Shown piece after piece: positions 8,314-31,589 of a DNA stretch of 32,270 nucleotides. The number at the start of each line of letters is the position of its first letter. Within the stretch, counting starts at the first letter, position 1. This stretch comes from a virus. The position numbers and the translations under genes were made by a program. The notes beneath the pieces are model-generated. The model made no database searches and had not been told where the DNA came from. It saw nothing but the letters and a program-made list of their open reading frames with translations. The stretch spans positions 1 through 32,270 of IMG/VR virus record IMGVR_UViG_3300030099_004806; one strand, given 5' to 3'.

Positions 8314-10326
8314 TTAAGAAGCTTTATACATTAGTCCCCACTTAGAAGTAGCACCATCAATTAGATCGATGAAACCAAGTCTTTGTGAAGCCACTAGTAC
8401 TCTTCTTTGTTCTGCCACTTGATAGTCTGACTCAACAGTCACACCACGAAGTCTTGGCACCACATAGTTTCTAGGATATACTGCAATCGCGTGGAATTTA
8501 GATACAGCAGGCGTTGCGAACTCGTCACAAACGATTACTCTAGATCCAAATACCGTTCCGATTTCTCCAGAAAGCTTAGTAGCCATATCGCCCACTAAGT
8601 TTACATCTTGGAACTCAGCATCTTCTAGAAGTTGATAGTATCCTGTTTGTGATACTACATAAATTACTTCTTCTGGCTTTAAGCCGTATTTGCCCATATT
8701 CTTTCTAGCAGCTAAAAGTTGTAGTGCTGTTAGAGAGTCAGAAGCAAATGCTGTTGAAGATTGTGTAAAGTCCGAATCATTTCTTGACAAGTGCAAGAGT
8801 CCTTCGAACGTTGCTCCACTTGTGCCGTATACGCCATCAGCGTCATCACCAGCAAGTAAAGCATTTTCCACGCCTCTAGCGTGTGATCTAATCATTGATT
8901 CACGAATTAGAGGAAGAATTGGTAGAATCGCATCTTCTTCTGTCTCGTTTCCTAAGAATGATTGAGAGATCAGTTTTTTGGTTGTAAGGGTTCTTTCAGT
9001 CATTACGATACCCGCACCATTTGAAGGATCATAAGCATCTCCTCTTGGGTCTAAGTTACCATGAGGCGCTGATCCTGATGCTGTTTGGTTGCTTGTAAAT
9101 TCAGCATAACCAGCATCTGGTAGGATTGGTAATATCTGAGTTGCAGAAGTCATAGCTATTTCTCTAAATAGAGGAGCTAATACTAGTTCGTTTTGAATAT
9201 CTCTTTCAATGTTAGTTGAAACAGTTTGCTCAAAATCTGCAGAGGATACATCAATACCTGAATGACCATTGACTTTTTCCATAGTCTCCTGTCCAAATTT
9301 AGTATTTAGTCCTTTACCAGTAGCTTTACCTAGTAGCCATACATCTTCCAAATCTGAGGCATAGGCTTCTAAACCGCCGCCTTTTTGTCTTTCACCAAAG
9401 ATTCTTTTAGACTCTCTGATTTGTGCGATTTCTTCAGATTTTTCTTGTAGCTCAGCTTTCAGGCTTTCTACTACTTCTTCAACGTTAGAATATTGACTAT
9501 CGATACGCTTCTCTAAATCAGAAACTAGTGTTTCTGCTCCAGATGTTCCAGCTTCGATAATAGCTGTTACTTCAGCTTTCTTTTCTTCGAGTTTTGCATC
9601 TTCTATTGCTTTCTCTTCGGCTGCCTTCTCTGCAACTGCTTTTTCTTCAGCTTCAGCGGAAGCTTTTGCTTCGGCTTGTTGCATCGCGATGGCTGCCGTA
9701 GTTTCTTTAGCAACTGTTTTTGCAAACTCTTCAAGATTAAAGTCTTTATTTTCTGACATTTTATTTTCCTTGAAGACAGACATTTTGTCTGTATCTTGAG
9801 GCTTTTTAGCCTCGGTTGGTTTGACAAATTGCTTTTTCCACTCAGAGTATTCCTCTTGAGTATCAAAAGACTTCGCCACAGAGAAGGTGGCTGATTGATT
9901 AGCGGGTACGGATACCACGCTTACTTCAAACAACTCCGCATCTTTAATCAAGTATCCATCGCCTTCTTCCATATAATCTGCGTCTTTGACGCGGAAGCCG
10001 ACACTGAATGCTCTTAGAATACCCTCTTTCACTAAATTGGTTACATCACCAGCACTTTTTGACAGGTTTGCTGTAATCTTTAGTCCCTTTTCGTCAGTCT
10101 CTAATGAGGTGGCTCTGCCGATAGGTTTATTGTAGTCATGATTAAAAAGAATGATTGGATTATTTGTAAAATTATCTAATCCTCCTTTCTCCCACGACTC
10201 TTTCATAATAACATCTCCTGCACGATCTGTGTCGTTAGTGCTGGCATATCCTTTGATATTAACACTTCCATCTTCGTTGGGTTCAACGGATTTGAAAGTT
10301 GATGTTAAATTAAAAATCTTTTGCAT
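8314..10326 (-). CDS. Fused prohead protease / scaffold / HK97-fold major capsid protein
   Basis: A 670-residue fusion. Residues 1-160 match the HK97 prohead protease (U35 type): NIKGYASTNDTDRAGDVI, FNHDYNKPIG with probable catalytic His63, and FSVGF with probable nucleophile Ser108. Residues about 195-310 are a Glu/Ala/Lys-rich coiled coil, equivalent to a scaffolding delta domain. Residues 320-670 are the HK97-fold capsid subunit (ILPDAGYAEF, AVYPRNYVVPRLRG, near-terminal LGFIDLIDGA). In separate-gene relatives these are two or three proteins; here the protease must cut itself from the capsid part during maturation. The portal lies upstream and the connector downstream. Confidence 0.9.
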   Translation of the reverse strand: MQKIFNLTSTFKSVEPNEDGSVNIKGYASTNDTDRAGDVIMKESWEKGGLDNFTNNPIILFNHDYNKPIGRATSLETDEKGLKITANLSKSAGDVTNLVKEGILRAFSVGFRVKDADYMEEGDGYLIKDAELFEVSVVSVPANQSATFSVAKSFDTQEEYSEWKKQFVKPTEAKKPQDTDKMSVFKENKMSENKDFNLEEFAKTVAKETTAAIAMQQAEAKASAEAEEKAVAEKAAEEKAIEDAKLEEKKAEVTAIIEAGTSGAETLVSDLEKRIDSQYSNVEEVVESLKAELQEKSEEIAQIRESKRIFGERQKGGGLEAYASDLEDVWLLGKATGKGLNTKFGQETMEKVNGHSGIDVSSADFEQTVSTNIERDIQNELVLAPLFREIAMTSATQILPILPDAGYAEFTSNQTASGSAPHGNLDPRGDAYDPSNGAGIVMTERTLTTKKLISQSFLGNETEEDAILPILPLIRESMIRSHARGVENALLAGDDADGVYGTSGATFEGLLHLSRNDSDFTQSSTAFASDSLTALQLLAARKNMGKYGLKPEEVIYVVSQTGYYQLLEDAEFQDVNLVGDMATKLSGEIGTVFGSRVIVCDEFATPAVSKFHAIAVYPRNYVVPRLRGVTVESDYQVAEQRRVLVASQRLGFIDLIDGATSKWGLMYKAS

Positions 10327-12258: not shown

Positions 12259-13563
12259 TTAAAAAGTTGTTGCTGATGTCTCAAAAGTATACAGCGCATA
12301 TCTGAGAGCATCTGACATATGAGAGAATCTATCATGTCGTGGCTTTTCTTTCATAAGATTAGGATTTGGATCCCACTGATATTGGTCTAAACATTCAAGA
12401 GTGTGAAAGCATCTTTGATCAACTATAAGTTTATTATTATCTACTATACTTGCAACTTCTCCAATACCATCAAGCACAGACTTCTTAGCATTAATAGTAG
12501 TTACATCATAGTTTTGTGCAAAGTCAAATCTAGTCTGTTGAGCTGCTGAGTCTATGTAAATCCAATCAATACTATACTTTTCTTGTAGTGCTTTTATTTG
12601 CATAGCATGTTGCTCAGTCGTTCGTTCTGCATCTAAATATTCATCTAGTACATAGAAGTTGCCTGAGTCCCAATCGTATGCTATGACACATAATGCTGTA
12701 GGATCTTTGTAACCTACGTCAAGTCCTGCGATAACATCCATTTGACTTGTATCAAGTTCACTCAAATCTGCAATACAGTTTTCATGATCAAAAGCCCATA
12801 TCTGACCTTCATAAGTATTAAAGTCAGCCATATATTCTTGAGCGAACTCTGCTCCTGACATAGACCTTCTTGCCTCTACAATATCTTCCTCACTAAAGCG
12901 TGGATTTTCGTGATAGGTTGCTCGGATCGAGCACCACTCTTGAAACTCGTCTGAGAATCCACGATAAAAGAAATCTGCAAACCAGTTATTTCTACCACGA
13001 GGTGTAGAGATAAATATTGCTTTTGAGTTATCTTTGTCTAGTGTTGGACGAAGTGCGACATTAAAAGCATCTCTGCCATCTACTAAAGCTGCCTCATCAA
13101 AAATGATTAAGTCATATGATCTACCTACACATGAATCTACTTGATTAATAGACCCCATACGAATTGTAGAACCATTTGATATTTCTATCACTCTATCTTT
13201 TGCATTATCTTTTGTTACTTCTAAATCGAAGTGTCGTATAAGTTGCCTTTGTAAGTCAAAAGATATTTGAGAGAGTGAGTAGTTAGGCGACATAATTAAT
13301 ATGTGCGTATTTGGAACAAGCGCTGTAAGCTGTCCAATTATATTTGATATGTAAGTTTTTCCTTGTCGTCTTGATACTGCACCACAGACAAAACGATACT
13401 TAGGATTATTGATTGCATTGATGATTGCTATTTGAGATGCAATAGGAGTAACTCCCAATAGTTCCATATATGGTTCTATTGGAAGTTTGATAAACCTATC
13501 TTCTGATTGATAAGAGGTTAGTTCCCTTCCCTCTATGTCTTTGCGACTGATTTCTAGTGTCAA
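12259..13563 (-). CDS. terL: Terminase large subunit
   Basis: ATPase-nuclease motor that packages phage DNA. It shows a Walker A variant SRRQGKT (about residue 64), Walker B LIIFDEA (about 152), coupling motif FISTPRG, and RNase H-like nuclease acidic residues in AGLDVGYKDPT, WIYIDSA and SHMSDALRYAL. I chose the TTG start at 13563 because it overlaps the stop of the preceding gene as TTGA and begins MTLEISRKDIEG. A longer frame reaches a GTG at 13641, but its N-terminal 26 residues overlap the upstream gene and look non-native. The protein is 434 residues. The small-subunit candidate lies more than 10 kb away at 23815, which is unusual. Confidence 0.93.
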   Translation of the reverse strand: MTLEISRKDIEGRELTSYQSEDRFIKLPIEPYMELLGVTPIASQIAIINAINNPKYRFVCGAVSRRQGKTYISNIIGQLTALVPNTHILIMSPNYSLSQISFDLQRQLIRHFDLEVTKDNAKDRVIEISNGSTIRMGSINQVDSCVGRSYDLIIFDEAALVDGRDAFNVALRPTLDKDNSKAIFISTPRGRNNWFADFFYRGFSDEFQEWCSIRATYHENPRFSEEDIVEARRSMSGAEFAQEYMADFNTYEGQIWAFDHENCIADLSELDTSQMDVIAGLDVGYKDPTALCVIAYDWDSGNFYVLDEYLDAERTTEQHAMQIKALQEKYSIDWIYIDSAAQQTRFDFAQNYDVTTINAKKSVLDGIGEVASIVDNNKLIVDQRCFHTLECLDQYQWDPNPNLMKEKPRHDRFSHMSDALRYALYTFETSATTF

Positions 13564-13787
13564 TGTTTCGTTATATTGTCTATTGAATGAATGATTTGAT
13601 GGGATTGAGCAAGATGGTATAGATATAGGAATCCTCCACACAATGCAGAGATCTGCAAGTTTTCTTCGGTGAGTTGACCTGTCTTAGAAGCCTCTTTGTC
13701 TACTTTATCTAATACTGCTGTTGCTGACTCTGAAAGATTTTCAAGCCAACTCTCATCCAAATATCTTAAATCTATATCTTCTACCAT
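13560..13787 (-). CDS. Small protein of unknown function upstream of terL
   Basis: A 75-residue protein from the ATG at 13787 (a TTG at 13805 is also in frame). It has an acidic N-terminal half (VEDIDLRYLDESWLENLSE), a helical middle and a hydrophobic GGFLYLYHLAQ segment. No recognisable domain. Its stop overlaps the terL start, so terL translation is probably coupled to it. Confidence 0.6.
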   Translation of the reverse strand: MVEDIDLRYLDESWLENLSESATAVLDKVDKEASKTGQLTEENLQISALCGGFLYLYHLAQSHQIIHSIDNITKH

Positions 13788-14080
13788 TTTACTCTGTTTG
13801 CCCAATATGCTGCGGACATTTTTCCTTTTCTTATATTTCTACGATGTCTTGCTTTGAATGATGCTCTTTTACGCTTCATTCTTTCAGACTCCCCTTTCTT
13901 CGGTTTACCCGCTGTTTTTGCTCCCTGTTGCCCAAATCGAATAGTTTTTATTTTGTTTCCGACTTTTGCAACAACAATGTGCGACTTTTTAGGGTGACCT
14001 GGAGTTCTTTTAGGTTTATTATATCCTGATACACCTGCCCTTTTAAGTCTTGAATCTCTTTTTCTTCGTTTTCTTGGCAT
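13781..14080 (-). CDS. Very basic phage protein, family of unknown function
   Basis: A 99-residue Lys/Arg-rich protein with recognisable segments: RLKRAGVSGYNKPKRTPGHP, KTIRFGQQGAKTAGKPKKGE, RKRASFKARH and C-terminal SAAYWANRVKW. I recall near-identical blocks in hypothetical proteins of marine phages; the function is unknown. The charge suggests nucleic-acid binding, possibly DNA condensation in the head, but this is inference. It overlaps the upstream basic gene by 38 bases and the next ORF by 7. Confidence 0.75.
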   Translation of the reverse strand: MPRKRRKRDSRLKRAGVSGYNKPKRTPGHPKKSHIVVAKVGNKIKTIRFGQQGAKTAGKPKKGESERMKRKRASFKARHRRNIRKGKMSAAYWANRVKW

Positions 14081-14366
14081 TTCTAGCTCTCCTTAACCCT
14101 GCTTTGGCTGATTTGAATACTTTAGCTACACTTTTCTTACCCATTACTTTTGCTCTTTGTTCTCCTACAGTTAGTATTTGAATTTTTCTAGCATAAGATT
14201 TACGAACTCTTTTTACTTTTCGTACAGTTGCTCTTGCATTTTTTACAGTAGCAAACTTTATTCTAACAGTATCTTTTGGGTTTTCGTCAGTATAAAGTCT
14301 CCTTCCAGAGTTCTTAGGCTTTTTACCTGTTCCTTTTTTTGGATCTCGCTTTTTTCTTCTTACCAT
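14043..14366 (-). CDS. Basic phage protein with RRLYTDENPKDTV motif
   Basis: A 107-residue, strongly basic protein. The GRRLYTDENPKDTVRIKF block is familiar from marine phage hypotheticals, followed by ARKIQILTVGEQRAKVMG and a Lys/Arg tail. Function unknown. It overlaps the upstream 50-residue gene by 44 bases in another frame, so the first codons of one of the two may be misplaced. Confidence 0.7.
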   Translation of the reverse strand: MVRRKKRDPKKGTGKKPKNSGRRLYTDENPKDTVRIKFATVKNARATVRKVKRVRKSYARKIQILTVGEQRAKVMGKKSVAKVFKSAKAGLRRARNAKKTKKKRFKT

Positions 14367-14475
14367 AACCTGATGCGTATATCGCTCTGCCTTGACGCTC
14401 AGCGTCTTTTTTGTTTTTGTAAATCTTACCTGATTTACCCCAACGATAGCCGCCTTTAACCTTTCTTACGGGCAC
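14323..14475 (-). CDS. Small basic protein with KVKGGYRWGKSGKIY motif
   Basis: A 50-residue protein from a GTG start at 14475, giving PVRKVKGGYRWGKSGKIY, KDAERQGRAIYASGY and a Lys/Arg-rich end. It overlaps the end of the upstream 47-residue gene by 20 bases. The KGGYRWGKSGK...AERQGRAIYASGY layout is one I associate with short conserved proteins of marine phages and plasmids. Function unknown. Confidence 0.7.
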   Translation of the reverse strand: MPVRKVKGGYRWGKSGKIYKNKKDAERQGRAIYASGYGKKKKARSKKRNR

Positions 14476-14599
14476 GACGCTTCTTTCTTTTCATACCTTT
14501 CTTTTTAGTGCCATTCTTTTTGCCGTTTTTCTTTTGTTTAGCCAGAATAGCTTTTTGTAAAGCCATTGGTAATTTCTTTTGCTTTGCTGTTAAAGCCAT
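14456..14599 (-). CDS. Small basic protein with ALTAKQKKLP motif
   Basis: A 47-residue protein starting ATG at 14599, with a GGGAGA ribosome binding site seven or so bases upstream. The N-terminus ALTAKQKKLPMALQKAILAK recurs in small marine-phage proteins; the rest is Lys/Arg-rich. Likely nucleic-acid-binding by composition only. Confidence 0.7.
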   Translation of the reverse strand: MALTAKQKKLPMALQKAILAKQKKNGKKNGTKKKGMKRKKRRARKKG

Positions 14600-14601
14600 A
14601 T

Positions 14602-14901
14602 TTATCTCCCTCTACGACGAGTCCTACGTCTACGTCGTCCTTTTCTAGCAACAGTTTTTACGTAAGTGGGCTTACCACCTACTCCCTGTCTCTTAGATCT
14701 TTTTCGTCTTACAGCTGACTTAATCTGTGATTTACTCATGCGTGCAGCTTTTGATGCAGGCACACACTTTGGATATCCTTTTCGACCTTTCTTGGCTTTT
14801 TTTCTTCCACATTTATGAAATCCACCACCTTTCTTTGGTCTACCAATATCAACCCAATTTTCGGAAAACCACTTTCCTAAGCCACCTCTACCTCTAGACA
14901 T
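14602..14901 (-). CDS. Basic phage protein, DUF5872-like
   Basis: A 99-residue protein with GLGKWFSENWVDIGRPKKGG, two cysteines in CGRKKAKKGRKGYPKC, then VPASKAARMSKSQIKSAVRR and an Arg-rich tail. This block order matches what I recall as DUF5872, found in marine phages and large DNA viruses; the family number is from memory. The cysteine pair could bind zinc or form a disulphide. Its ATG overlaps the stop of the upstream gene by one base. Confidence 0.75.
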   Translation of the reverse strand: MSRGRGGLGKWFSENWVDIGRPKKGGGFHKCGRKKAKKGRKGYPKCVPASKAARMSKSQIKSAVRRKRSKRQGVGGKPTYVKTVARKGRRRRRTRRRGR

Positions 14902-15053
14902 TATTTACCTACCTTTCTCTTCGCGGCTCTATGAGCTGCTCCAAAAGTTTTGCCTTCTCTCATAAGCCTTCTCATCATAGACATATGTCTTTTAGTATGA
15001 TGTGCAGAGTGTCTACGTAGCGTAGCTTGTTGTCGCTTAGTAAGTTTTTTCAT
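14901..15053 (-). CDS. Small His/Arg-rich protein
   Basis: A 50-residue frame starting ATG at 15053: KKLTKRQQATLRRHSAHHTK, then MSMMRRLMREGKTFGAAHRA and a basic end. It fits the KLTKRQ...RHSxHHTxxHM pattern of short marine-phage proteins. Unknown function. It overlaps the next gene start by one base (TAATG), which supports it as real. Confidence 0.7.
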   Translation of the reverse strand: MKKLTKRQQATLRRHSAHHTKRHMSMMRRLMREGKTFGAAHRAAKRKVGK

Positions 15054-15063
15054 TTTTTTCTTT

Positions 15064-15255
15064 TTAGCCACGACGATATCTCCCTCCTCGCTTCTTGTAT
15101 TCTCTTACAAGATATGCGTTTGCATAGGCACTGGGATAAACTGCAAACTTTCTTTTAGTTGCTGCTTTTACCCTTGCGTATAGCTTTTTATTAGTTGGAA
15201 TGTTTCTAAGTTTTTTTGATTTAGTAGACTTACGTCTACGCTTTCTAACAGCCAT
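15064..15255 (-). CDS. Small basic protein with YPSAYANAYLVREYKKRGG motif
   Basis: A 63-residue protein with a Lys/Arg-rich N-terminus and the very characteristic C-terminal KFAVYPSAYANAYLVREY. That motif is widespread in small viral basic proteins of unknown function. Composition suggests nucleic-acid binding. Its start overlaps the upstream 30-residue gene by 11 bases. Confidence 0.75.
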   Translation of the reverse strand: MAVRKRRRKSTKSKKLRNIPTNKKLYARVKAATKRKFAVYPSAYANAYLVREYKKRGGRYRRG

Positions 15256-15906: not shown

Positions 15907-16075
15907 GTTCCTCCAAAGCTTTTTCAGCTTCTTCTTTTGTTTTAAATTTATGCAACCTACCTGCTTTACAACGAAACTTCCATAGTCCTCTACTTTCGTA
16001 AATTTCTATGCCTGGTTTCTTGGGAGCTGTAGACTCCTTTGCGGGCGCTGCCATCTTGGTTTCATAATCAACCAT
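15899..16075 (-). CDS. Small protein of unknown function
   Basis: A 58-residue frame starting ATG at 16075, overlapping the end of the IscU-like gene by 8 bases. It has a Pro/Ala/Lys-rich N-terminus and a compact C-terminal part (GIEIYESRGLWKFRCKAGRL, then KTKEEAEKALEEH) that looks like a small beta-beta-alpha fold of the kind seen in AP2/SPOR-like mini-domains. No firm family assignment. Confidence 0.6.
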   Translation of the reverse strand: MVDYETKMAAPAKESTAPKKPGIEIYESRGLWKFRCKAGRLHKFKTKEEAEKALEEHE

Positions 16076-16481
16076 CGCTACTCCTATAATTATCTTTTCG
16101 TCTATAATCAGCTAATGCTTGTTGTATAGACTCCTGTGCTAAAACGGAGCAATGTATCTTGATAGGTGGTAAGTCCAATATCTCAGCTATTTGTTTATTT
16201 GTGACGGCCTCCGCCTGTTCCAGTGTTTTGCCCCGTAGCATGTCTACTAACTCACTTGAGCTCGCTATTGCTGAGCCACAACCGTAAGTTTTAAACTTTA
16301 CATCTTGTATAATATCCTTTTCTACTTGCAACTGTAAACGCATGACATCTCCACAAGCGGGAGCTCCAACCATCCCTGTTCCAACATTTGCATCATTTGG
16401 GTCAAAACGACCAACGCTATGTTTTTCGGGTTCTTTTAGTACATTTTCGAATCTTTCTACTACTCTTTTTGAATATGCCAT
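16068..16481 (-). CDS. iscU: Fe-S cluster assembly scaffold, IscU/NifU-N family
   Basis: A 137-residue protein with the complete IscU pattern: MVGAPACGDVMRLQL with Cys43 and Asp45, FKTYGCGSAIASSS with Cys68, and LPPIKIHCSVLAQESI with Cys111 and the LPPxK chaperone-recognition motif for HscA. All three cluster-ligating cysteines and the Asp are kept, so it is probably functional. In bacteria IscU receives sulfur from IscS and passes 2Fe-2S clusters to apo-proteins. No IscS or HscA is seen here, so it would work with host partners. It sits among phage structural and basic-protein genes, so it is an acquired metabolic gene. Confidence 0.93.
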   Translation of the reverse strand: MAYSKRVVERFENVLKEPEKHSVGRFDPNDANVGTGMVGAPACGDVMRLQLQVEKDIIQDVKFKTYGCGSAIASSSELVDMLRGKTLEQAEAVTNKQIAEILDLPPIKIHCSVLAQESIQQALADYRRKDNYRSSDG

Positions 16482-16482
16482 G

Positions 16483-16713
16483 TTACGCCATTGTTACAAA
16501 GGTGAAGACAACAGTTGCTAAACCTATTATTCCGCCTCCTGCAGCTGAAAAGAGAATCATCTCTAATCTACTTATGGAATCTTCTACGTTATCAAATCGT
16601 TTAGCAGAGCGCTTCTCTATACCTTCTAACTGATTAAATACAGTTTTCCAGCGTTCAGCACAAATTGCTTCATGAGTTGATAGTCTAGTCTCTATATCTT
16701 CGTCCCTCTCCAT
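16483..16713 (-). CDS. Coiled-coil plus C-terminal membrane anchor, XhlA-like
   Basis: A 76-residue protein: about 48 residues of charged helix (STHEAICAERWKTVFNQLEG, then DNVEDSISRLE) and a C-terminal hydrophobic segment (MILFSAAGGGIIGLATVVFT). This layout is that of the XhlA/haemolysin-type phage lysis accessory proteins, which sit at the inner membrane and help holin-endolysin lysis. No endolysin is visible in this window, so the lysis role is inferred. It is the first gene after a strong promoter. Confidence 0.6.
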   Translation of the reverse strand: MERDEDIETRLSTHEAICAERWKTVFNQLEGIEKRSAKRFDNVEDSISRLEMILFSAAGGGIIGLATVVFTFVTMA

Positions 16714-16805: not shown

Positions 16806-18644
16806 TTATGATTTTTGCAACTTTCTTATTTTTACCCCAAAGTATGGTGCAAAAATCTTCACAGGCTCTTCTTTCCCTTTAACTTTTATTGTATCAAGCT
16901 GTTTACATTTCATTTCAGAGGGTAACTGAGTATAAGTGTGTTCTGATAAAAGTATTGGAGTGTCGTAGTGTCTAGTTTGTACTTCAAGTCTTGCTCCTAA
17001 ATTAACAGCATCGCCAACTACAGAGTAGTCAAATCTAGATTCACTCCCCATATTTCCAACTATGCAAGGGCCAGTATTAATTCCTGAGCCTATTACTACA
17101 GGAGGCAGATTTAATCCTTTGTCTTTTAATTCCTGATTTAATTGTTCAGTAAGGATTTCTATTTCTATGGCAGATTTTAGTGCCATTTCTGCATGGTTTT
17201 CACATGGTAACGGTGCGTTCCAAAATGCCATGATACAGTCTCCCATATATTTATCAATAGTTCCTCCATTTTTCAGTATAACTTTTGTCATTCTGTCTAA
17301 AAATAAATTTATAAGCTCTACAAGTCCTTCTGGATCGTCTTTTCTCATGTAAGCTTCTGAAATTGGAGTAAATCCTACAATATCTGCAAATAAAAATGTC
17401 ATTTCTTTACGATCGCCACCTAATTTCATAAGTGATGGATCTTTTACAAGCATTTCTACCATATCTGGAGATAGATAAGTGCCAAATTGACCTTTGATTT
17501 GTCGTCTAAGCAAGAATTGTTTTACAAAATTTCTAAAAGTAACAATAGACCAGTAAATAAGTAGTATTAAAATGACTCCACTTACGTCTATCAGTAGTCC
17601 TTGTTGAAAACCATACCATGCTCCATAACCTAAACCACCGATTGTAGCTATAAGTATAGGAACAGAAGCATAAATAGATGCGGCAGCAAAAGCTAGGATC
17701 AATATTCCTAGTGTACCAATGCCTAGCTCTGCCGCTCGAGACCATGATGGCTCAGAAGGACTATCACCCGCGATTAGTCCATGAAGAATATTTGCCTGAA
17801 CCTCATGAGCATACATAGATCCATTTGGAGTAGGCACAGGATTTGCTACTCCTTCTGCTGTTACTCCAAATATTACAAAAGTTGCTCCCTGCAATGGGCT
17901 TCTTAAAAACTCTGCTGCTGTTTGTCTATAAAATTTAGTGTTCCACGTAGTCCAAACTCGTGCTCGAGGATCTGTTGTAATGAGTGGATACTCTGGTATT
18001 CTTAACCACTCAACTCCTGTTTCTTGAGTAGATAGTTGATAGCTAATGTTCCCGGTAGCTACTCTTAACATCTCAAGTGCAAATGCAGGATATATCTTAT
18101 CGTCTACGTTTACGGCGAGAGGAACTCTTCTTACGACGCCGTCTACTTCTGGTGCGGTTGTTATTAATCCTACTCCTGCGGATTGTTCTGCTAGGGCGGG
18201 TAGTTGTCTTAAAATTCCTGGATACTGAAATAGCCATTCTCTTGGATTTTCTCCTAATGAGGCAGTACCTACATGAGGTCCGCCTTCCGTAGCTTGTGTT
18301 GAAGCTGTGTATGCTAAAATAGTTGGTGTAGTGCTAAGATCATAAGCGAATATATTATCTTCTCGATCTCCTCGTAAATCAGGATCTGGCATTAGTACTG
18401 TAATGCCTGGTATTGCATCTGTTCGTGTAATCAGTTTTCCATAGTAACTACGAGGAATAGGATATCCACCCACTGCTTTTACAAACTCTTCGTCAATATC
18501 TACAAGTACAATCATCTCATCTTGCACCTCTGGTTTTGTTGCCATAAGACTATCAAAAACTTTTAGTTCAAGTATTTGTAAAGGAATTGGATTCCATAGT
18601 AAAATACCTAATAGTCCTAAAGCTGCAAATATTCTTGTTTTCAT
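16806..18644 (-). CDS. CHASE2-domain class III adenylate cyclase
   Basis: A 612-residue membrane enzyme. An N-terminal TM segment is followed by a periplasmic CHASE2-like sensor (residues about 30-300), three TM helices (about 305-375) and a cytoplasmic class III cyclase domain. Catalytic features: TFLFADIVGFT (first metal Asp), GTIDKYMGDCIMAFWNAP (the Lys expected for adenine recognition and second metal Asp), and VVGDAVNLGARLE (Asp, Asn and Arg of the transition-state set). It should make cAMP from ATP; the Lys-Asp pair favours adenylate over guanylate. The gene is ATGA-coupled to the secreted-protein gene before it. I recall FecR-domain proteins being frequent neighbours of CHASE2 cyclases in bacteria, as here. 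A membrane sensor cyclase in a phage structural operon is very unusual. Confidence 0.93.
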   Translation of the reverse strand: MKTRIFAALGLLGILLWNPIPLQILELKVFDSLMATKPEVQDEMIVLVDIDEEFVKAVGGYPIPRSYYGKLITRTDAIPGITVLMPDPDLRGDREDNIFAYDLSTTPTILAYTASTQATEGGPHVGTASLGENPREWLFQYPGILRQLPALAEQSAGVGLITTAPEVDGVVRRVPLAVNVDDKIYPAFALEMLRVATGNISYQLSTQETGVEWLRIPEYPLITTDPRARVWTTWNTKFYRQTAAEFLRSPLQGATFVIFGVTAEGVANPVPTPNGSMYAHEVQANILHGLIAGDSPSEPSWSRAAELGIGTLGILILAFAAASIYASVPILIATIGGLGYGAWYGFQQGLLIDVSGVILILLIYWSIVTFRNFVKQFLLRRQIKGQFGTYLSPDMVEMLVKDPSLMKLGGDRKEMTFLFADIVGFTPISEAYMRKDDPEGLVELINLFLDRMTKVILKNGGTIDKYMGDCIMAFWNAPLPCENHAEMALKSAIEIEILTEQLNQELKDKGLNLPPVVIGSGINTGPCIVGNMGSESRFDYSVVGDAVNLGARLEVQTRHYDTPILLSEHTYTQLPSEMKCKQLDTIKVKGKEEPVKIFAPYFGVKIRKLQKS

Positions 18645-19021
18645 ATTCTAAAGTTGATTCGAAGTCCCAGCTCATGATTATTCTGAACTGTTTTTATATA
18701 AATACCGTTCATAATACTTAGAGCGGCTGTTCGGATTCTTGGGTTATCGTCTAATACTTTAAATGCCATGTAATTTATTCCTAGTTTCAAAACGACTACC
18801 GCTTCTTTAGTTGGATAGTTGCCAAGTATAGGATTTGATTCTATAGCTATATTATAGCTTGGATCTTTTTGTTTATCAATTAAATTAAAGGTTTGAAAAG
18901 TATCAACCACATTTAATGCAACATAAGATTTCCATAGACGCTGTTCAGTTTTGTCCCAGTCTTCAAATGCTGCAAAAACTAGCGTAGGTAGTGCTAGTAA
19001 AGTACATATTATATGTTTCAT
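18641..19021 (-). CDS. Secreted protein of unknown function
   Basis: A 126-residue protein with a clear signal peptide (MKHIICTLLALPTLVFA, cleavage expected after Ala17) and a mature part containing WKSYVALNVVDTFQTFNLID and NPILGNYPTKEAVVVLKLGI, two hydrophobic helices. I recall similar proteins as hypotheticals in marine phages, but with no assigned function. It may sit in the periplasm or membrane beside the cyclase sensor. ATGA overlaps join it to the genes on both sides. Confidence 0.7.
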   Translation of the reverse strand: MKHIICTLLALPTLVFAAFEDWDKTEQRLWKSYVALNVVDTFQTFNLIDKQKDPSYNIAIESNPILGNYPTKEAVVVLKLGINYMAFKVLDDNPRIRTAALSIMNGIYIKTVQNNHELGLRINFRI

Positions 19022-19218
19022 TTTTTTCTATTCCAAAGTCGTTCGTGCATATAGTATAAATACATTTTAGTTGCAATCTCAATACTTGCAATACCCCCTG
19101 CAAGTGTCCACTCTCCTGTAATTATCCAACTAATAACAAAAGTATCGGTTGTTGCTAAAATCCGCCAAGTTATAGTCTTAAAGACACTTCTCTTGCGGCT
19201 TTCTGCGAGAGTAGTCAT
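19018..19218 (-). CDS. DUF2061-family membrane protein
   Basis: A 66-residue protein with the DUF2061 pattern: RKRSVFKTITWRILATTDTF, ISWIITGEWTLAGGIASIE, then MYLYYMHERLW. Two TM helices are expected. Bacterial members are inner-membrane proteins of unknown function. Here it is ATGA-coupled to the curlin-repeat gene and to the secreted protein, implying fixed co-expression with the export and signalling genes. Confidence 0.85.
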   Translation of the reverse strand: MTTLAESRKRSVFKTITWRILATTDTFVISWIITGEWTLAGGIASIEIATKMYLYYMHERLWNRKK

Positions 19219-20021
19219 TGCTGTGTAATTGTAATAGTCTTATTACAATTTGAGTTACAATTAAATGTAGCAGAGTATGTTTGTGCTGTAGATCCAAGTT
19301 GTGTTACATCTACATCATAGTTATCTGTGTAGAACTTCATAAGAGCAGTATGTGCACCTGCTCCTGATTGTGTTAAGTCTACATCATTGTTATCGGCATC
19401 TGAATAAAAGTATATATCTGCATCCTTATTTCCAGTGCCAGATTGAGTTACTGTAGTCGAGTTATTATCAGCATTCCCAACATTGTAAACATAAGTGTTA
19501 TGTTGTCCAGTGCCAGACTGTGCGACTGTAACATCTGAATTGTCCGCGAAGGACAAAATTCTTGTGTATTTATTATTTCCTGTTTGTGTGATTGAGTAGT
19601 CATTATTGTCTCCTGATCCTAATTGTTCTGCAGTATTGTTATTTCCTGTGATACTAATACTTGAGGTATTATCGTCTTCATCCTGATCTAGCCATACAAA
19701 GTTATCATCTCCGTCTACACTTATAGTATAAGTGTTATCTGTATGATTTGACCATACAGTATAAAGTCGAATAGTATTGCTACTACCATCAACTGTTGAA
19801 GACCAAGTAGCGTTACTGCAGGTGTGGGCTGTATAAGTCGTGCCAGGAAAAGATCCACTATTATTAGTAGTAGGAGAGCCACAAAGTATATATGTAGCAT
19901 TTCCACTACCAATCTGTTTTGTAGTGATACTAGTTCCCGACCCTTTATAAGTTATTTGCGTAAGATTATCCGCAAAACTAAGGTGACTGAAAAATAATAA
20001 TAGTATTATCGCCCGCGCCAT
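19215..20021 (-). CDS. Curlin-repeat secreted protein (CsgA/CsgB-like)
   Basis: A 268-residue protein with signal peptide MARAIILLLFFSHLSFA. The mature part is Asn/Thr/Ser/Gly/Asp-rich with repeats of about 20-25 residues built on I/V-x-Q-x-G-x-x-N (SITQTGNNKY, TVAQSGTGQHNTY, TVTQSGTGNKDAD, DLTQSGAGAHTAL, DVTQLGSTAQTYS), the curlin signature, and it ends ITITQQ. Such repeats stack as beta-solenoid rungs and polymerise into amyloid fibres outside the cell. A central region (about 45-120) is less regular and has cysteines, as does the C-terminus, unlike E. coli CsgA. It probably passes through the CsgG pore encoded upstream. Its start lies 44 bases inside the FecR gene. Confidence 0.87.
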   Translation of the reverse strand: MARAIILLLFFSHLSFADNLTQITYKGSGTSITTKQIGSGNATYILCGSPTTNNSGSFPGTTYTAHTCSNATWSSTVDGSSNTIRLYTVWSNHTDNTYTISVDGDDNFVWLDQDEDDNTSSISITGNNNTAEQLGSGDNNDYSITQTGNNKYTRILSFADNSDVTVAQSGTGQHNTYVYNVGNADNNSTTVTQSGTGNKDADIYFYSDADNNDVDLTQSGAGAHTALMKFYTDNYDVDVTQLGSTAQTYSATFNCNSNCNKTITITQQ

Positions 20022-21057
20022 TTACTTTTATCTCCATAGGTATTCCTGCAGTATTTATAGATAAATAAGCTGCCGCTGTTTTATCTAGTGCAATATCAAA
20101 AGTATTTGTACCATAGTGTACAAAGTGAATATAGTCACCTTCTACAAAACTATAAGTTTGAAGTTGCGGATCGAATCCAGGTATAATACCTTCTAACTCT
20201 ACACTATTTATAGTTCCTGTTGTACTTTCTTTCTTGCTTGCTGTTTCTACTACTGCGAGTAAATCAATTAAGAAATCAAAACTTAGTAAGTCAATGTCAA
20301 GTCTTGTTATTTCTTCTTCCTCTTCTAAGAAATCTCTGTCTAAATCTGGAGCATCCTCAAAGAAGTCTCGATCTAATTCTGTACGAGGTCCTTGCTGTTG
20401 CTCCTCTACTGCTTGTTCTATTTGTTCTGGTTGATTAATTATCAATAAGTTATTAATCAAGTTTAATGTTAGATTTCCTAGTATCACAGACTTTGTAGGC
20501 TGTGAATCCATAGTCTGCACCATAGTTGCTTGAAACGGTTGATTAAGTACTTCAACTCCTGCCCAAGTTTCTACAGTTATCTCTCCTGATGAAGTTCCAT
20601 CTTCATTTGGTAAAAGTATAATTAAACTTCTACCAAGTTCATCTACTGTGGTTGTAAAGTCTGTACCACGTATGCCAATAGTCGCACTAGGTGTGCGAAT
20701 AGTTATGTTCTTTTTATCTATCTTTCCGAGCTTGCCAGTTATAAATCTAGCAGTTCCTGATGCCATCTTTAGCGCCATCTTGCTTTTGCTCGGGTCTGGA
20801 TCAAATATGTAATTATCTATAATTACTCTTGAATGTTCGGTAAGTTTTAAAACTGTACTATCTATAAACTCTACTGCGAGTCGTCCTTGTCCAGTTCTTA
20901 CTTCATCAAATGAAAAAATATCTGAAGCTAATTCAGCCATGAAAGAGTCGGTCGAGTCCTTTCTCGATATCTCTCCATTACCCCTTAGCTCAGATATTTC
21001 TCCAATTTCTGTTGCGTTTAGTGTACCTACTAATAATATTAACAGCCAGAAGCGCAT
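19978..21057 (-). CDS. FecR-domain periplasmic protein
   Basis: A 359-residue protein with a signal peptide (MRFWLLILLVGTLNA). Residues about 20-165 form a FecR domain: DIFSFDEVRTGQGRLAVEFI, TVLKLTEHSRVIID, SGTARFITGKLG, and the diagnostic IRTPSATIGIRGTDF. Residues about 210-260 are an acidic Gln/Glu/Asp linker, followed by a beta-rich C-terminal part of unknown family. FecR domains are periplasmic signal-relay modules, classically from a transporter to an anti-sigma/sigma pair; many, like this, lack the anti-sigma tail. It lies between two curlin genes and upstream of the CHASE2 cyclase, so it may link the state of the fibre or pore to the sensor (inference). Confidence 0.9.
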   Translation of the reverse strand: MRFWLLILLVGTLNATEIGEISELRGNGEISRKDSTDSFMAELASDIFSFDEVRTGQGRLAVEFIDSTVLKLTEHSRVIIDNYIFDPDPSKSKMALKMASGTARFITGKLGKIDKKNITIRTPSATIGIRGTDFTTTVDELGRSLIILLPNEDGTSSGEITVETWAGVEVLNQPFQATMVQTMDSQPTKSVILGNLTLNLINNLLIINQPEQIEQAVEEQQQGPRTELDRDFFEDAPDLDRDFLEEEEEITRLDIDLLSFDFLIDLLAVVETASKKESTTGTINSVELEGIIPGFDPQLQTYSFVEGDYIHFVHYGTNTFDIALDKTAAAYLSINTAGIPMEIKVNGAGDNTIIIFQSP

Positions 21058-21728
21058 TGGTCTATATTGATTGAACTTCCAGACCCACCACTATTTTGTA
21101 ACAATAAGTTTGCTACGTTTGTGCTAGCAGTATCGGTTTGGTCAATATCAATATCCATTGAACTTCCAGTTAAGTCTACTGTGATTTGATGGTCAGCACT
21201 TCCTGTCTGTGTAGTGTCAATATCATTACTGTTTCCAGTAATATCCCAGTTATTAATACAACCAACTACTTCACAAGTAGCATTTATATTATTACTCGCT
21301 CCACTAATTACAAAATCCTGATTACCACCTGTAGCAGTAGCCGCTGCACCTTGTGTCCAAACTAAAACATTACTGTCACCACCTGAAGCTGTGTAGTCAA
21401 AGTCTGAGTTTGCTACGTCGCCTGTGGCTCCAACTGCAAATGTAGCAGTAGCACTTGACCCTGTGTTTGAGTAAGTCCAGCTTGAGCTATTACCTTGTAG
21501 TATGCTCGCTATGATAGCATTTGATGAACCAATCTGGTCAATATCAACTGTCATAGATGTGCCACCAAGTACTGCTCTTGTTGCTGATGTACCCACGGTA
21601 TTTGTTGCTCCAATCTGATCTATTGTAAGTGTGAGTCCTGTTCCTGTTTGAGTGATATAAATATCATTATTACCCGCATAGGCTGTTGATACAAGTAGTG
21701 CAATTACACTAATCAGTACCTTCTTCAT
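21039..21728 (-). CDS. Curlin-repeat secreted protein (CsgA/CsgB-like)
   Basis: Start chosen at 21728 (MKKVLISVIALLVSTAYA, a textbook signal peptide) with a GGAG ribosome binding site; upstream codons in frame overlap csgG. The 229-residue product begins its mature part GNNDIYITQTGTGLTLTIDQ and has repeats ending in QIG/QTG/DQT (VDIDQIGSSNAI, DTTQTGSADHQITV, DIDIDQTDTASTNVANLL), then a C-terminal pair of cysteines (QCASGC). It is a second fibre subunit; whether it is nucleator or major subunit cannot be told by eye. Its stop overlaps the FecR start by 19 bases. Confidence 0.87.
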   Translation of the reverse strand: MKKVLISVIALLVSTAYAGNNDIYITQTGTGLTLTIDQIGATNTVGTSATRAVLGGTSMTVDIDQIGSSNAIIASILQGNSSSWTYSNTGSSATATFAVGATGDVANSDFDYTASGGDSNVLVWTQGAAATATGGNQDFVISGASNNINATCEVVGCINNWDITGNSNDIDTTQTGSADHQITVDLTGSSMDIDIDQTDTASTNVANLLLQNSGGSGSSINIDQCASGC

Positions 21729-22557
21729 TATTTTCTCCACGAAGTTTGCTATAGTCAAAGTCCCAAACTTCCTTTGCCAGTCCTTGCTGTACTAATCCGT
21801 AAACTGCTGCTTCTATAGCTGCTCGTACTGCATAGGTTACTGGTTCATTATCCGTGCTTCCAGATTCTACTTCAACGAGTTCAGTTCCTAATTCATAGAA
21901 CTTGAAAACGTCTCCACCTTTTGCTGTGGATAATATAGTTTTTGTAGCTGTTACATTTAAGAGTACTTCGCCTGTCTGAACGAGTACAGCTCTAAGGACT
22001 ACAGTTACTTTGTCCTCGCGGTATTGATTCTGCATACCTATTCCTAAGTATCGAGCACCACTTCCGCCTGTCTTTAAATTAGTGTCATATCCTATGACAC
22101 CGCCCTCTAAGATCATACCTGCGTAGAGTAGAGGTTTTAAAATCGTTTTTGCATCTTTTCCACCATTATAACTTTCATAAGTATTTCGCACAAGTTGTCT
22201 TTCTTTTGTAAGAGCATCAAGCCCTGAGCGTTCGACAACTACAAACCAGTTTCCTCTTCCTGCATCTCTCAAAGCTTCGATAAGTATATGAATAGCTCCT
22301 TGAGTGACAGCAGTACTAAAACTAGATATCATATCACTTGGTTTTCTTTGTCCAGTTTCATCACCGAACTTATAGACAGCAACTACTGTTTTCTGATTTG
22401 GTAATGGTAAGTCTAACAGTTGTTGTGCTGCAGTAGGCTCTATAACAGGCCCTTGCTCACAAACAATACCCTTACTACATCCTGTGGCATGTTGAACTCC
22501 GATAGCAGCACAGCCGTTAAGAAATAGTAGTAAAACTAAGCTACGGAGTACAGTCAA
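21709..22557 (-). CDS. csgG: CsgG-like outer-membrane curli secretion lipoprotein
   Basis: Start chosen at TTG 22557, seven bases after a GGAGGG site, giving a lipoprotein signal with lipobox LNGC and lipidated Cys16; a further upstream TTG (22581) gives no better signal. The 282-residue product follows CsgG closely: VAVYKFGDETGQRKP, SSFSTAVTQGA, WFVVVERSGLDAL, ERQLVRNTYE, IGYDTNLKTGGSGARYLGI, VTVVLRAVLVQTGEVL, KTILSTAKGGDVFKF and NEPVTYAVRAAIEAAV. CsgG makes a nonameric pore that exports curli subunits. The two adjacent curlin genes and the CsgF-like gene give it local cargo and partner. Confidence 0.95.
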   Translation of the reverse strand: MTVLRSLVLLLFLNGCAAIGVQHATGCSKGIVCEQGPVIEPTAAQQLLDLPLPNQKTVVAVYKFGDETGQRKPSDMISSFSTAVTQGAIHILIEALRDAGRGNWFVVVERSGLDALTKERQLVRNTYESYNGGKDAKTILKPLLYAGMILEGGVIGYDTNLKTGGSGARYLGIGMQNQYREDKVTVVLRAVLVQTGEVLLNVTATKTILSTAKGGDVFKFYELGTELVEVESGSTDNEPVTYAVRAAIEAAVYGLVQQGLAKEVWDFDYSKLRGENNEEGTD

Positions 22558-23113
22558 GTAAACACCCTCCAAAGCTTCCAATAGGTATTTCGATTTCTGT
22601 AGTACTAATCAGTACTCCGTCTACATACTCTTCAATTATCAGAGTTATAGATACACCATTATTTACCCAAGTTAGTATATTTCCTTCTAAGTTAATTGAT
22701 CCCATAGCCCACGACTCTGGATCATTTATATCAGGTCTTGCTCCTTCATAACTAAAGAGCGATTCTGCAATATCTTTTGCGAGTGTAGAATATATCCTAC
22801 TCTCTAAGTTTCTTGTAAACTTTGCTAAAACTGTATTGTCTGCTTCTCGTTCTGCTTCATCGAGTGCATCTTGTATGTCTGTTGCTATCTTTTGTCTGCG
22901 TGTTCGTTCTTGCTCGTCTATTGTAAGATAGTGTGCGGAGGTTCCTTGACCACTAAAAGAAGGAGACTTAAATTTATGTGTAAGCTCGCTTCCTGTTACT
23001 AGCTTTGAAAGTGTGAGTGTTAAAATGAAAATAATAAACAGTAGAGAATAGTATATTGTCCACTTACTTACTGTCTTGTTGAGTATTCTCTCCTTTATGT
23101 TCTTTCTTCTCAT
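22541..23113 (-). CDS. csgF: CsgF-like curli assembly protein
   Basis: A 190-residue protein from ATG 23113 (a TTG at 23128 is also in frame). After a hydrophobic export segment (IYYSLLFIIFILTLTLSKLV), the mature start LTHKFKSPSFSGQ resembles the conserved N-terminal FxFxNPxFGG peptide of CsgF that inserts into CsgG. Further parts match the CsgF outline: a helical middle (FTRNLESRIYSTLAKDIAES), a Gly/Ser turn, and C-terminal strands (LEGNILTWVNNGVSITLIIE). CsgF couples the pore to the nucleator. It is longer than E. coli CsgF (138 residues). The 16-base overlap with csgG supports pairing. Confidence 0.82.
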   Translation of the reverse strand: MRRKNIKERILNKTVSKWTIYYSLLFIIFILTLTLSKLVTGSELTHKFKSPSFSGQGTSAHYLTIDEQERTRRQKIATDIQDALDEAEREADNTVLAKFTRNLESRIYSTLAKDIAESLFSYEGARPDINDPESWAMGSINLEGNILTWVNNGVSITLIIEEYVDGVLISTTEIEIPIGSFGGCLLDCTP

Positions 23114-23342
23114 TCTCTTGCATTTCAAGTACCGTGTTTACTTTTTCTTGTAAACGAATCATATCTTGGTCGAGTAACCGTAGTTGATCTATTAACCGTA
23201 TTATGGTTAGTTTCATTTGCTCGACTGCGGGATCAACCTTTGTGAGTATTGTTTGGTAGACAAAGTATACGAAATATCCCATACCAACTGCCATCACAAC
23301 TGGAAAACCAAAGTCCTGTATTGCCTTTGTTACCTCTTCCAT
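23064..23342 (-). CDS. Small membrane protein with coiled-coil tail, holin-like candidate
   Basis: A 92-residue protein: N-terminal TM segment (FGFPVVMAVGMGYFVYFVYQ), then a charged coiled-coil (EQMKLTIIRLIDQLRLLDQ) and a Lys/Glu/Gln tail. This matches the BhlA/UviB-like architecture of some small holins or bacteriocin-type membrane proteins. It overlaps csgF by 50 bases. A structural role in the curli system cannot be excluded. Confidence 0.55.
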   Translation of the reverse strand: MEEVTKAIQDFGFPVVMAVGMGYFVYFVYQTILTKVDPAVEQMKLTIIRLIDQLRLLDQDMIRLQEKVNTVLEMQENEKKEHKGENTQQDSK

Positions 23343-23638
23343 TAGTCTCTTCTCGCGTCTATTGTTCCATCTTCCACAAAATTTTCTGCTCGAGCCAACC
23401 TTTGTAGGTCAGGGGCTAAGCCAAGTGCTGCGGACACACTTGTATCAATTCTTATAATATCGTTGTTCATTACTTTTCCTCGAGTAATCAACATTTCTGA
23501 CATACCTTGTACTGTTTTAATATCAGCTACAAGGTTGTCCATAATTTGTTTTATAATTATGAAGATAAACACACCCATAATAAGTGCTCCTGCGATGGGA
23601 GCTCCTACATCTTTTATGAGTGTGAATACTTCTAGCAT
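23342..23638 (-). CDS. Small membrane protein with coiled-coil tail, holin-like candidate
   Basis: A 98-residue protein of the same architecture as its downstream neighbour: DVGAPIAGALIMGVFIFIII TM segment, then a charged helical domain. The starts (MEEVTKAIQDFGFPVV and MLEVFTLIKDVGAPIA) align, suggesting an old tandem duplication. Its ATG abuts the upstream stop, and its stop overlaps the next ATG by one base. Confidence 0.55.
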   Translation of the reverse strand: MLEVFTLIKDVGAPIAGALIMGVFIFIIIKQIMDNLVADIKTVQGMSEMLITRGKVMNNDIIRIDTSVSAALGLAPDLQRLARAENFVEDGTIDARRD

Positions 23639-23814: not shown

Positions 23815-24288
23815 TTATTTTTCTGCGTCAAGTAGTTTTTTCATTAAGTTTCCGTAGTTTCCTTGTCCAAAAGGAACTTCACCATCTATGTGTATATTAT
23901 TTTGTGTCAAGGCTTTGATACTTCCCGCCTTCACTTTTTCGATTTCAGTCTGCGCTTTCATTTCATCCATGCGAATCTTATGCTGCATCATTAGCAGGTC
24001 AGCCAAATCTTTATTACTATAAATTTCTGTCTCTTCTGCTTCCTCTAACTTCTGGTCAATTAGTCTGTCCAGCGTTTCTGCAAGTTTAAAACGGTTGCGA
24101 TAGCCTGAATCCATGTATACAGTATCAATGTACTTTTGTATCTCTCTTTTATTCAGTATCTCGACGACTTCATCTCTTGGGACGCCTAATTCTCTACTAA
24201 CCGAGGATACATCTCCGTTCGCCAAATAGCTATTTGCTACTTCCAATCCTTCTGGACTCATTCGGGTTGTTATTTCTTTACTACTCAT
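23815..24288 (-). CDS. Terminase small subunit-like DNA-binding protein
   Basis: Start chosen at ATG 24288 (MSSKEITTRMSPEG); an in-frame TTG at 24312 lies upstream of the promoter -10 and cannot be transcribed from it. The 157-residue product has an N-terminal helix-turn-helix (VANSYLANGDVSSVSRELGV, then PRDEVVEIL), a helical oligomerisation middle (KLAETLDRLIDQKLEEAEET, DLADLLMMQHKIRMDEMKAQ) and a short C-terminal tail. This matches phage small terminases, which recognise the packaging site. It is the first gene of the leftward operon but far from terL. An alternative is a regulatory HTH protein. Confidence 0.65.
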   Translation of the reverse strand: MSSKEITTRMSPEGLEVANSYLANGDVSSVSRELGVPRDEVVEILNKREIQKYIDTVYMDSGYRNRFKLAETLDRLIDQKLEEAEETEIYSNKDLADLLMMQHKIRMDEMKAQTEIEKVKAGSIKALTQNNIHIDGEVPFGQGNYGNLMKKLLDAEK

Positions 24289-24294
24289 ATGCGT

Positions 24295-24323
24295 ATTATA
24301 CAAAATTATCAACCGAATGTCAA
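24295..24323 (-). promoter_or_regulatory. Consensus sigma70 promoter, leaderless start
   Basis: Minus strand TTGACA, exactly 17 bp, TATAAT, with the same upstream AAAAAATAGTTC context. The expected start (about seven bases past the -10) coincides with the ATG at 24288, so the mRNA should be leaderless or nearly so. It heads the TerS-curli-cyclase operon. Confidence 0.9.
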
Positions 24324-30887: not shown

Positions 30888-30952
30888 GAATAGCGTTAGT
30901 AATTATTCTAATTCTGTGGATTATGTTTAACAATACAAATGGGAGATACTAA
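30878..30952 (+). CDS. 24-residue membrane micro-protein
   Basis: ATG at 30878 inside the end of the previous gene; MELGIALVIILILWIMFNNT is one short TM helix with a polar C-terminus. It ends one base before the polyphosphate kinase ATG. Too short for certainty, but the spacing suits translational coupling. Confidence 0.45.
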   Translation: MELGIALVIILILWIMFNNTNGRY

Positions 30953-30953
30953 T

Positions 30954-31589
30954 ATGACAAAACTAGAACTACAACAAGTATTACTCAACGAGATAGTTGA
31001 GAAAGATTTTGGACGTGTAGCTGTAATACTAGAAGGTAGAGACACAGCAGGTAAGTCGGGAACTATTCGTGAGTTGACGCACTATCTACCAACAAATAAG
31101 TACTCCGTTTCGTTAAGCAACAAACCAAGTGCTTGGGCTATGAAACATTGGCTTAAGTCTTGGAAAAAGAAGTTGCCTAGCAATAATCAAATCGTATTCT
31201 TTGACAGAAGTTGGTATTCAAGAGCAATGGTTCAGCATCTAAATGGCTGGTGCTCTGAGAAACAATACACCAAGTTTATGAAAGAAGTAAACGAGTGGGA
31301 AAACAAACAGAGAGATGTAACATTCATCAAGCTATGGCTTTCAATCTCTGAGGAAGAACAGGGTGCAAGACTTGCTAACAGACAAGTATGCCCTTTGAAG
31401 AAGTGGAAGTTCTCCCCAAATGATGCGATTGCGTTATCAAAGTATGACCAGATGACTATTCTAAAAGAACGAGTCCTTACACAATGTGGCGAGTGGCATA
31501 CAATAGATTACAATAATAAAGTTGCTGGGCGACTATCTTTAATAACTAAAGTAGTAGATATACTAAGGAGAGAACATGAAGGTATATGA
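30954..31589 (+). CDS. ppk2: Polyphosphate kinase 2 family protein
   Basis: Start chosen at 30954, eight bases after a GGGAGA site, rather than 30939. The 211-residue product shows the PPK2 pattern: Walker A VAVILEGRDTAGKSGTIREL (residues about 22-41), Walker B IVFFDRSWYSRAMVQ (about 80-94), FIKLWLSISEEEQGARLANR (lid region with Arg/Lys) and PLKKWKFSPNDAIALSKYDQ. PPK2 enzymes transfer phosphate between polyphosphate and nucleoside mono- or diphosphates. In a phage it could use host polyphosphate to raise NDP or NTP pools; the substrate preference cannot be read here. It is shorter than typical PPK2 (about 230-300 residues) but the core is present. Confidence 0.88.
   Translation: MTKLELQQVLLNEIVEKDFGRVAVILEGRDTAGKSGTIRELTHYLPTNKYSVSLSNKPSAWAMKHWLKSWKKKLPSNNQIVFFDRSWYSRAMVQHLNGWCSEKQYTKFMKEVNEWENKQRDVTFIKLWLSISEEEQGARLANRQVCPLKKWKFSPNDAIALSKYDQMTILKERVLTQCGEWHTIDYNNKVAGRLSLITKVVDILRREHEGI

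Follow-up and report, generated by a model that had tools for sequence, protein, structure and literature searches.

A candidate lysis-linked curli (type VIII secretion) module between the terminase genes of a T5-like siphophage

Type VIII secretion (curli) genes are already known from phages, the same genes having been published in the same order in Pelagibacter myophages (PMC7029224), in podophages of the HTVC023P type (PMC9599517) and in the OM43 phage Melnitz (PMC9004378). Curli genes carried by phages are a frequent feature of the sea (PMC9599517). The functions put forward for them are sibling capture, superinfection defence, uptake and lysis timing (PMC7029224, PMC9599517, PMC9004378). 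The locus considered here is a curli module in the IMG/VR virus record IMGVR_UViG_3300030099_004806, a 32 kb fragment which was analysed over its whole length of 32,270 bases (hereafter the window). It is slightly more likely than not that the window carries a late, lysis-linked phage module, which would coat the dying cell with amyloid. The finding adds the T5-like siphophages to the carriers of such modules, as well as a repeated acquisition at a single genomic site. With the link to lysis genes, what was a list of candidate functions becomes a claim on timing that can be tested, namely the end of infection. Two uncharacterised phage proteins are also named as curli partners, and a published label is questioned.

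The core of the module is identified by profile matches. A preliminary description of the window had named a CsgG-like pore lipoprotein with the lipobox LNGC and a CsgF-like protein, and both assignments hold. The first scores 189.6 bits against the Pfam family (cut-off 20.8), and the phage CsgG profile matches the solved E. coli CsgG along its full length. The second scores 31.7 bits (cut-off 25.8), and its HKFKSPSFSG stretch is aligned to FQFRNPNFGG, the pore-binding N-terminus of E. coli CsgF, in a CsgF-profile alignment which is weak (E 0.21). Beyond this N-terminus, the AlphaFold model of CsgF comprises two long helices and a beta sheet (pTM 0.39), as also described for the Melnitz protein (PMC9004378). 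Two curlin-repeat proteins had been proposed as well. The claim is confirmed for curlin2, with 49.7 bits and four repeats; curlin1 remains just below the curlin-repeat cut-off (19.6 versus 20.7 bits), yet its AlphaFold model is an all-beta repeat fold of 18 strands (pTM 0.80). Signal peptides were assigned by eye. The FecR, CHASE2 and cyclase domains also exceed their Pfam cut-offs, and the active-site residues of the cyclase (two metal-binding Asp, Lys, Asn and Arg: D421, K465, D469, N548, R552) are kept in 78-79 of 79 relatives. Such a gene content supports the export of curlin-like subunits from the infected cell.

On the minus strand, the order after the terminase small subunit gene terS is a 62-aa open reading frame (ORF), TMcc-a, TMcc-b, CsgF, CsgG, curlin1, FecR, curlin2 and DUF2061, followed by a protein of unassigned family, the CHASE2-cyclase, a coiled-coil/membrane-helix protein, IscU, small basic proteins and the terminase large subunit gene terL (Table 1). 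Each frame from TMcc-a to the cyclase overlaps the next one by 1-50 bases; the overlapping frames reported initially are thus found, with 17-50 bases for the curli genes. The cassette is indeed embedded in a phage genome, not inside the structural operon as first thought: it lies between terS and terL, immediately before the capsid and tail genes. Its core had been recognised correctly, while the FecR protein, the CHASE2 cyclase and the two coiled-coil membrane proteins at 23064-23638 had been missed.

The gene neighbourhood of the related loci gives several views of the link to lysis. Of 158 distinct curli loci, 64 have an endolysin or an Rz/Rz1 spanin no more than 2.5 kb away, a fraction not to be read as a probability since the loci are related to one another; many flanks are short. 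L016 runs from TMcc-a and TMcc-b through CsgF, CsgG, a curlin, FecR, a second curlin, the cyclase and the coiled-coil protein to Rz, Rz1 and a lysozyme. Elsewhere, a GH24 endolysin (lysozyme) overlaps or touches TMcc-a (L130-L133, L137, L141, L208), Rz/Rz1 and an endolysin come behind the final module gene detected (L142, L160), Rz/Rz1 follow the cyclase (L299, L351, L303 and others), or spanins stand upstream of the module (L038, L045, L068). The T5-like contig L348 has a CwlJ endolysin within the module, and curli-less T5-like intervals contain a CwlJ endolysin (L291, L337) or spanins (L328). This neighbourhood, in its several arrangements, is new: lysis-gene neighbours of the module are not described in PMC7029224, PMC9599517 or PMC9004378, and a literature search on curli with siphophages, Demerecviridae or spanins gave nothing relevant beyond these papers. 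The repeated position among lysis genes in relatives suggests that the module acts at the end of infection, and late expression is supported by its place amid packaging and lysis genes.

Upstream of CsgF, the paralogous TMcc-a and TMcc-b, 92-98 aa long, each have one membrane helix and a coiled coil. The pair accompanies nearly every phage curli module. Within 50,697 phage records, relatives of TMcc-b were found only in the curli phages HTVC008M and Melnitz; among 151 IMG/VR loci with TMcc proteins, 143 have CsgF or CsgG, five end directly after the pair and three, representing two contigs (L178/L233 and L250), are curli-less. The latter are natural empty sites, with the pair before an endolysin: directly before a lysozyme in L178, and followed by Rz/Rz1-like genes and a GH24 lysozyme in L250. 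The pair is retained despite a changed order when one TMcc stands between CsgF and CsgG (L061, L066, L067, L074-L076), and both lie downstream of the module in L072 and L082. Their small size, single membrane helix, place beside endolysin or spanins in relatives and weak PHROG holin match would suit holins, which open the inner membrane. The upstream gene has been labelled a histidine kinase (PMC9599517). This identity was rejected for the window genes at the equivalent position, neither Pfam nor PHROGs giving a kinase family, and no dimerisation or ATPase domain being present, in these 92-98 residues; the published label is probably a mis-annotation. A TMcc pair devoid of a kinase domain, travelling with phage curli and found beside an endolysin in two curli-less contigs, is a new element of these modules.

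A possible course of events can be outlined. Expression of the module would come late in infection, at the time when packaging and lysis genes are also expressed. The CsgG lipoprotein would form an outer-membrane pore into which CsgF would dock through its N-terminal peptide, and the two curlin-repeat proteins would exit through this pore to build up amyloid on the infected cell. Together, FecR and the CHASE2 cyclase probably constitute a periplasm-to-cytoplasm sensor making cAMP, and the TMcc proteins may be holin-like members of the lysis cassette that received the module. Formed shortly before lysis, the coat could tether the cell, its debris and the phage progeny to hosts nearby ("sibling capture") or exclude competing phages; it appears as the most likely benefit because the module sits in lysis loci. 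More tentatively, and at somewhat less than even chances, phage curli in general may be a lysis-timed device repeatedly inserted into lysis loci of unrelated phages, the module and the TMcc pair being working parts of the lysis cassette, through amyloid holding debris, virions and neighbouring cells at lysis or through a CsgG pore taking part in outer-membrane failure.

The same neighbourhood could be read differently, with the CsgG-CsgF pore as the lysis machinery itself, pinholin- or secretin-like, timing or completing lysis, and the curlins secondary, as proposed for Melnitz (PMC9004378). The location of the module inside lysis cassettes, next to endolysins or spanins and to the holin-like TMcc proteins, agrees with this proposal. 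However, two signal-peptide curlins, superfluous for a pure lysis pore, are conserved in most modules, and the phages carrying the module often retain normal Rz/Rz1 and endolysin, leaving nothing missing for CsgG to replace. Because of these conserved curlins and ordinary spanins and endolysins, the amyloid coat is favoured over a pore-only role, which we regard as unlikely.

Several observations weigh against a lysis-linked amyloid coat. No lysis gene was found within 2.5 kb in 94 of the 158 loci, often because the flanks are short. No recognised endolysin or spanin lies in the terS-terL interval of the window, no GH24 or CwlJ endolysin in the whole HTVC008M genome, and the Melnitz CwlJ is 7 kb from the module. 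The lysozyme is 11-20 kb off in G005, G009, G021 and G036, which means that lysis linkage is not universal. Melnitz-infected cells showed no clumping in culture (PMC9004378). No CsgE gate was detected among the cassette proteins scanned (part of the ORFs); it is also reported to be absent from phage modules (PMC9599517). Foldseek searches of the PDB with the CsgF and curlin1 models gave no significant match, several of the low-scoring curlin1 matches being beta-helix or amyloid proteins.

The FecR protein beside an outer-membrane pore hints at iron, and uptake of nutrients or cofactors during infection has been raised for such modules (PMC9599517, PMC7029224). The IscU genes adjoining the module in the window and L020, and accompanied by an A-type Fe-S carrier in L322, point the same way. 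Yet conserved CsgF and curlins are unneeded for uptake, and a place among late and lysis genes would probably be too late to feed replication. FecR domains, moreover, are not confined to iron regulation. The uptake role thus seems quite improbable, and the amyloid coat is retained as the preferred reading.

Table 1. Predicted features of the terS-terL interval, in minus-strand order
Feature	Positions	Strand	Evidence or remark
terS (terminase small subunit), upstream border of cargo interval	23815..24312	-	phrog_3802, 8.9e-40
TMcc-a, one N-terminal membrane helix and coiled coil, C-terminal DARRD motif	23342..23638	-	phrog_18771, 5e-21; no Pfam family; conserved with phage curli modules
TMcc-b, paralogue of TMcc-a	23064..23342	-	phrog_18771, 1.7e-26; weak holin match phrog_4898, 4e-4
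CsgF-like protein with pore-binding HKFKSPSFSG stretch	22541..23113	-	PF10614, 2e-7; N-terminal alignment to solved CsgF
CsgG outer-membrane pore lipoprotein	21709..22557	-	PF03783, 5.8e-56; solved CsgG, 3.5e-65
curlin1 (curlin-like secreted subunit 1)	21039..21728	-	PF07012, 9e-4, just under cut-off; all-beta model
FecR-domain protein with signal peptide	19978..21057	-	PF04773, 2e-12; phrog_37870, 5.6e-70
curlin2 (curlin-like secreted subunit 2)	19215..20021	-	PF07012, 3.6e-13; 4 repeats
DUF2061 membrane protein, inserted in module	19018..19218	-	PF09834, 1.8e-22
Secreted or membrane protein, no convincing family	18641..19021	-	4-base frame overlap at either side
CHASE2 sensor and class III nucleotide cyclase	16806..18644	-	PF05226, 1e-30; PF00211, 1.6e-18
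Coiled coil and C-terminal membrane helix, directly 3' of cyclase	16483..16713	-	follows cyclase in L004, L005, L016, L299, L322, L351
IscU (Fe-S scaffold)	16068-16478		adjoins module
terL (terminase large subunit), downstream border of interval	12259..13641	-	phrog_2, 3e-46; 49% identity to T5-like Vibrio phages

Two further observations concern this interval. IscU is a neighbour of the module in the T5-like phages and in L020, and in L322 (L322:720-1746) an A-type Fe-S carrier stands next to it as well. The run of small Arg/Lys-rich proteins encoded before terL (13781-15255) is highly conserved, by up to 95%, among marine T5-like contigs; such proteins are likewise encoded near other phage curli modules.

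The terminase, portal, fused protease-capsid, tail tube and tape measure proteins of the window match tailed-phage families by profile. TerL and, with 31% identity, the major tail protein resemble those of T5-like Vibrio phages, and the gene order terL-HNH-portal-capsid-tail is that of Pogseptimavirus. By these terminase, tail and gene-order criteria, the window is part of the genome of a marine T5-like siphophage, a type with genomes of about 110 kb and terminal repeats. The mis-assembled bacterial contig envisaged in the preliminary description has a negligible chance of being the explanation. No supporting point was found, junctions and order are repeated in the independent contigs L004, L005, L299, L322, L348 and L351, and a second assembly of the window's phage (L281) is identical over the shared genes. 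Since the order is equal in independent contigs, the window is not mis-assembled. L004 and L005 are relatives with the arrangement of the window. The window has no tRNA, and it carries a polyphosphate kinase 2 gene (30939-31589; PF03976, 5e-46), also present in the T5-like contigs L304 and L312.

A CsgG scan of IMG/VR gave 191 relatives, 80 of which were kept. Apart from truncated ends, the full gene set recurs in HTVC008M, Melnitz and these 80 loci. Two contigs binned in Flavobacteriaceae and Pelagibacter metagenome-assembled genomes (L084, L085) have the phage-type module and are probably mis-binned phage contigs. A terminase scan (598 stretches) indicated that marine T5-like phages are common. 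Their terS-terL interval is mostly 1.1-4.9 kb without curli (7.4 kb in L291), versus 7.9-9.8 kb in the curli-bearing contigs L299, L322 and L348; that of the window measures about 10 kb. In the CsgG tree, the window with L004, L005 and L351, then L299, L322 and L348 stand at different places. The approximately unbiased (AU) test rejected one common origin for the modules of T5-like phages, whose CsgGs do not form one group (p=5.5e-5); the module was therefore acquired, or replaced, more than once, on each occasion at the terS-terL site. The preliminary description had referred to curli-like genes in marine myophages, which are indeed published for pelagimyophages, and had doubted how common they are in siphovirus-type genomes; T5-like siphophages carry the module repeatedly, always between terS and terL. 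The curli-less interval of L291 (L291:1459-7363) encodes a secreted protein rich in Asn and Thr, a secreted-looking one of 884 aa, an outer-membrane protein of the Gcw_chp family, a CwlJ endolysin and IscU, an alternative cargo which also points to extracellular products at this site.

Comparison with known systems places the window between several of them. The T5-like siphophages (Demerecviridae, Pogseptimavirus) share with it TerL (49%), major tail protein (31%) and gene order; their cultured records contain no CsgG match, and protease and capsid protein are fused in the window. In this fusion (8314-10326), prohead protease and major capsid protein look like a single 670-aa frame, the two being separate in the T5-like relative vB_ValS_X1. 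Curli operons of Alphaproteobacteria (Sphingomonads, Rhizobiales) have CsgGs 43-50% identical to that of the window, but they belong to a separate clade, the phage CsgGs forming one clade against the alphaproteobacterial CsgGs found in genomes, and no nearby TMcc, CsgF, FecR or cyclase homologues were found at the thresholds used. GenBank phage relatives of this CsgG type are HTVC008M, four Melnitz strains and one 1.5-kb "Salmonella phage" record (OR851715.1, Salmonella phage S.Kent 1-2-1), whose CsgG is 42% identical to the window's and which is probably not from a Salmonella phage. Melnitz has the same module and gene order, and its record annotates curlin repeats and FecR, whereas, according to its paper, csgA and csgB are missing; that paper bases its proposal of a pinholin or secretin on other neighbours and does not describe spanins and holins beside the module (PMC9004378). 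The HTVC023P-type pelagipodophages have the same genes as the window (PMC9599517), and contigs of the P023 type have the CsgG nearest to it outside the T5-like phages; they differ in being podophages, in the upstream gene termed histidine kinase and in the adjacent lysis genes, unmentioned in that paper. HTVC008M is a T4-like Pelagibacter myophage (Kyanoviridae) whose module adjoins baseplate genes, DUF2061 and IscU not being beside it, but it shares with the window the order two TMcc, CsgF, CsgG, curlin, FecR, second curlin and cyclase, with 52% identity for CsgG and 44% for the cyclase.

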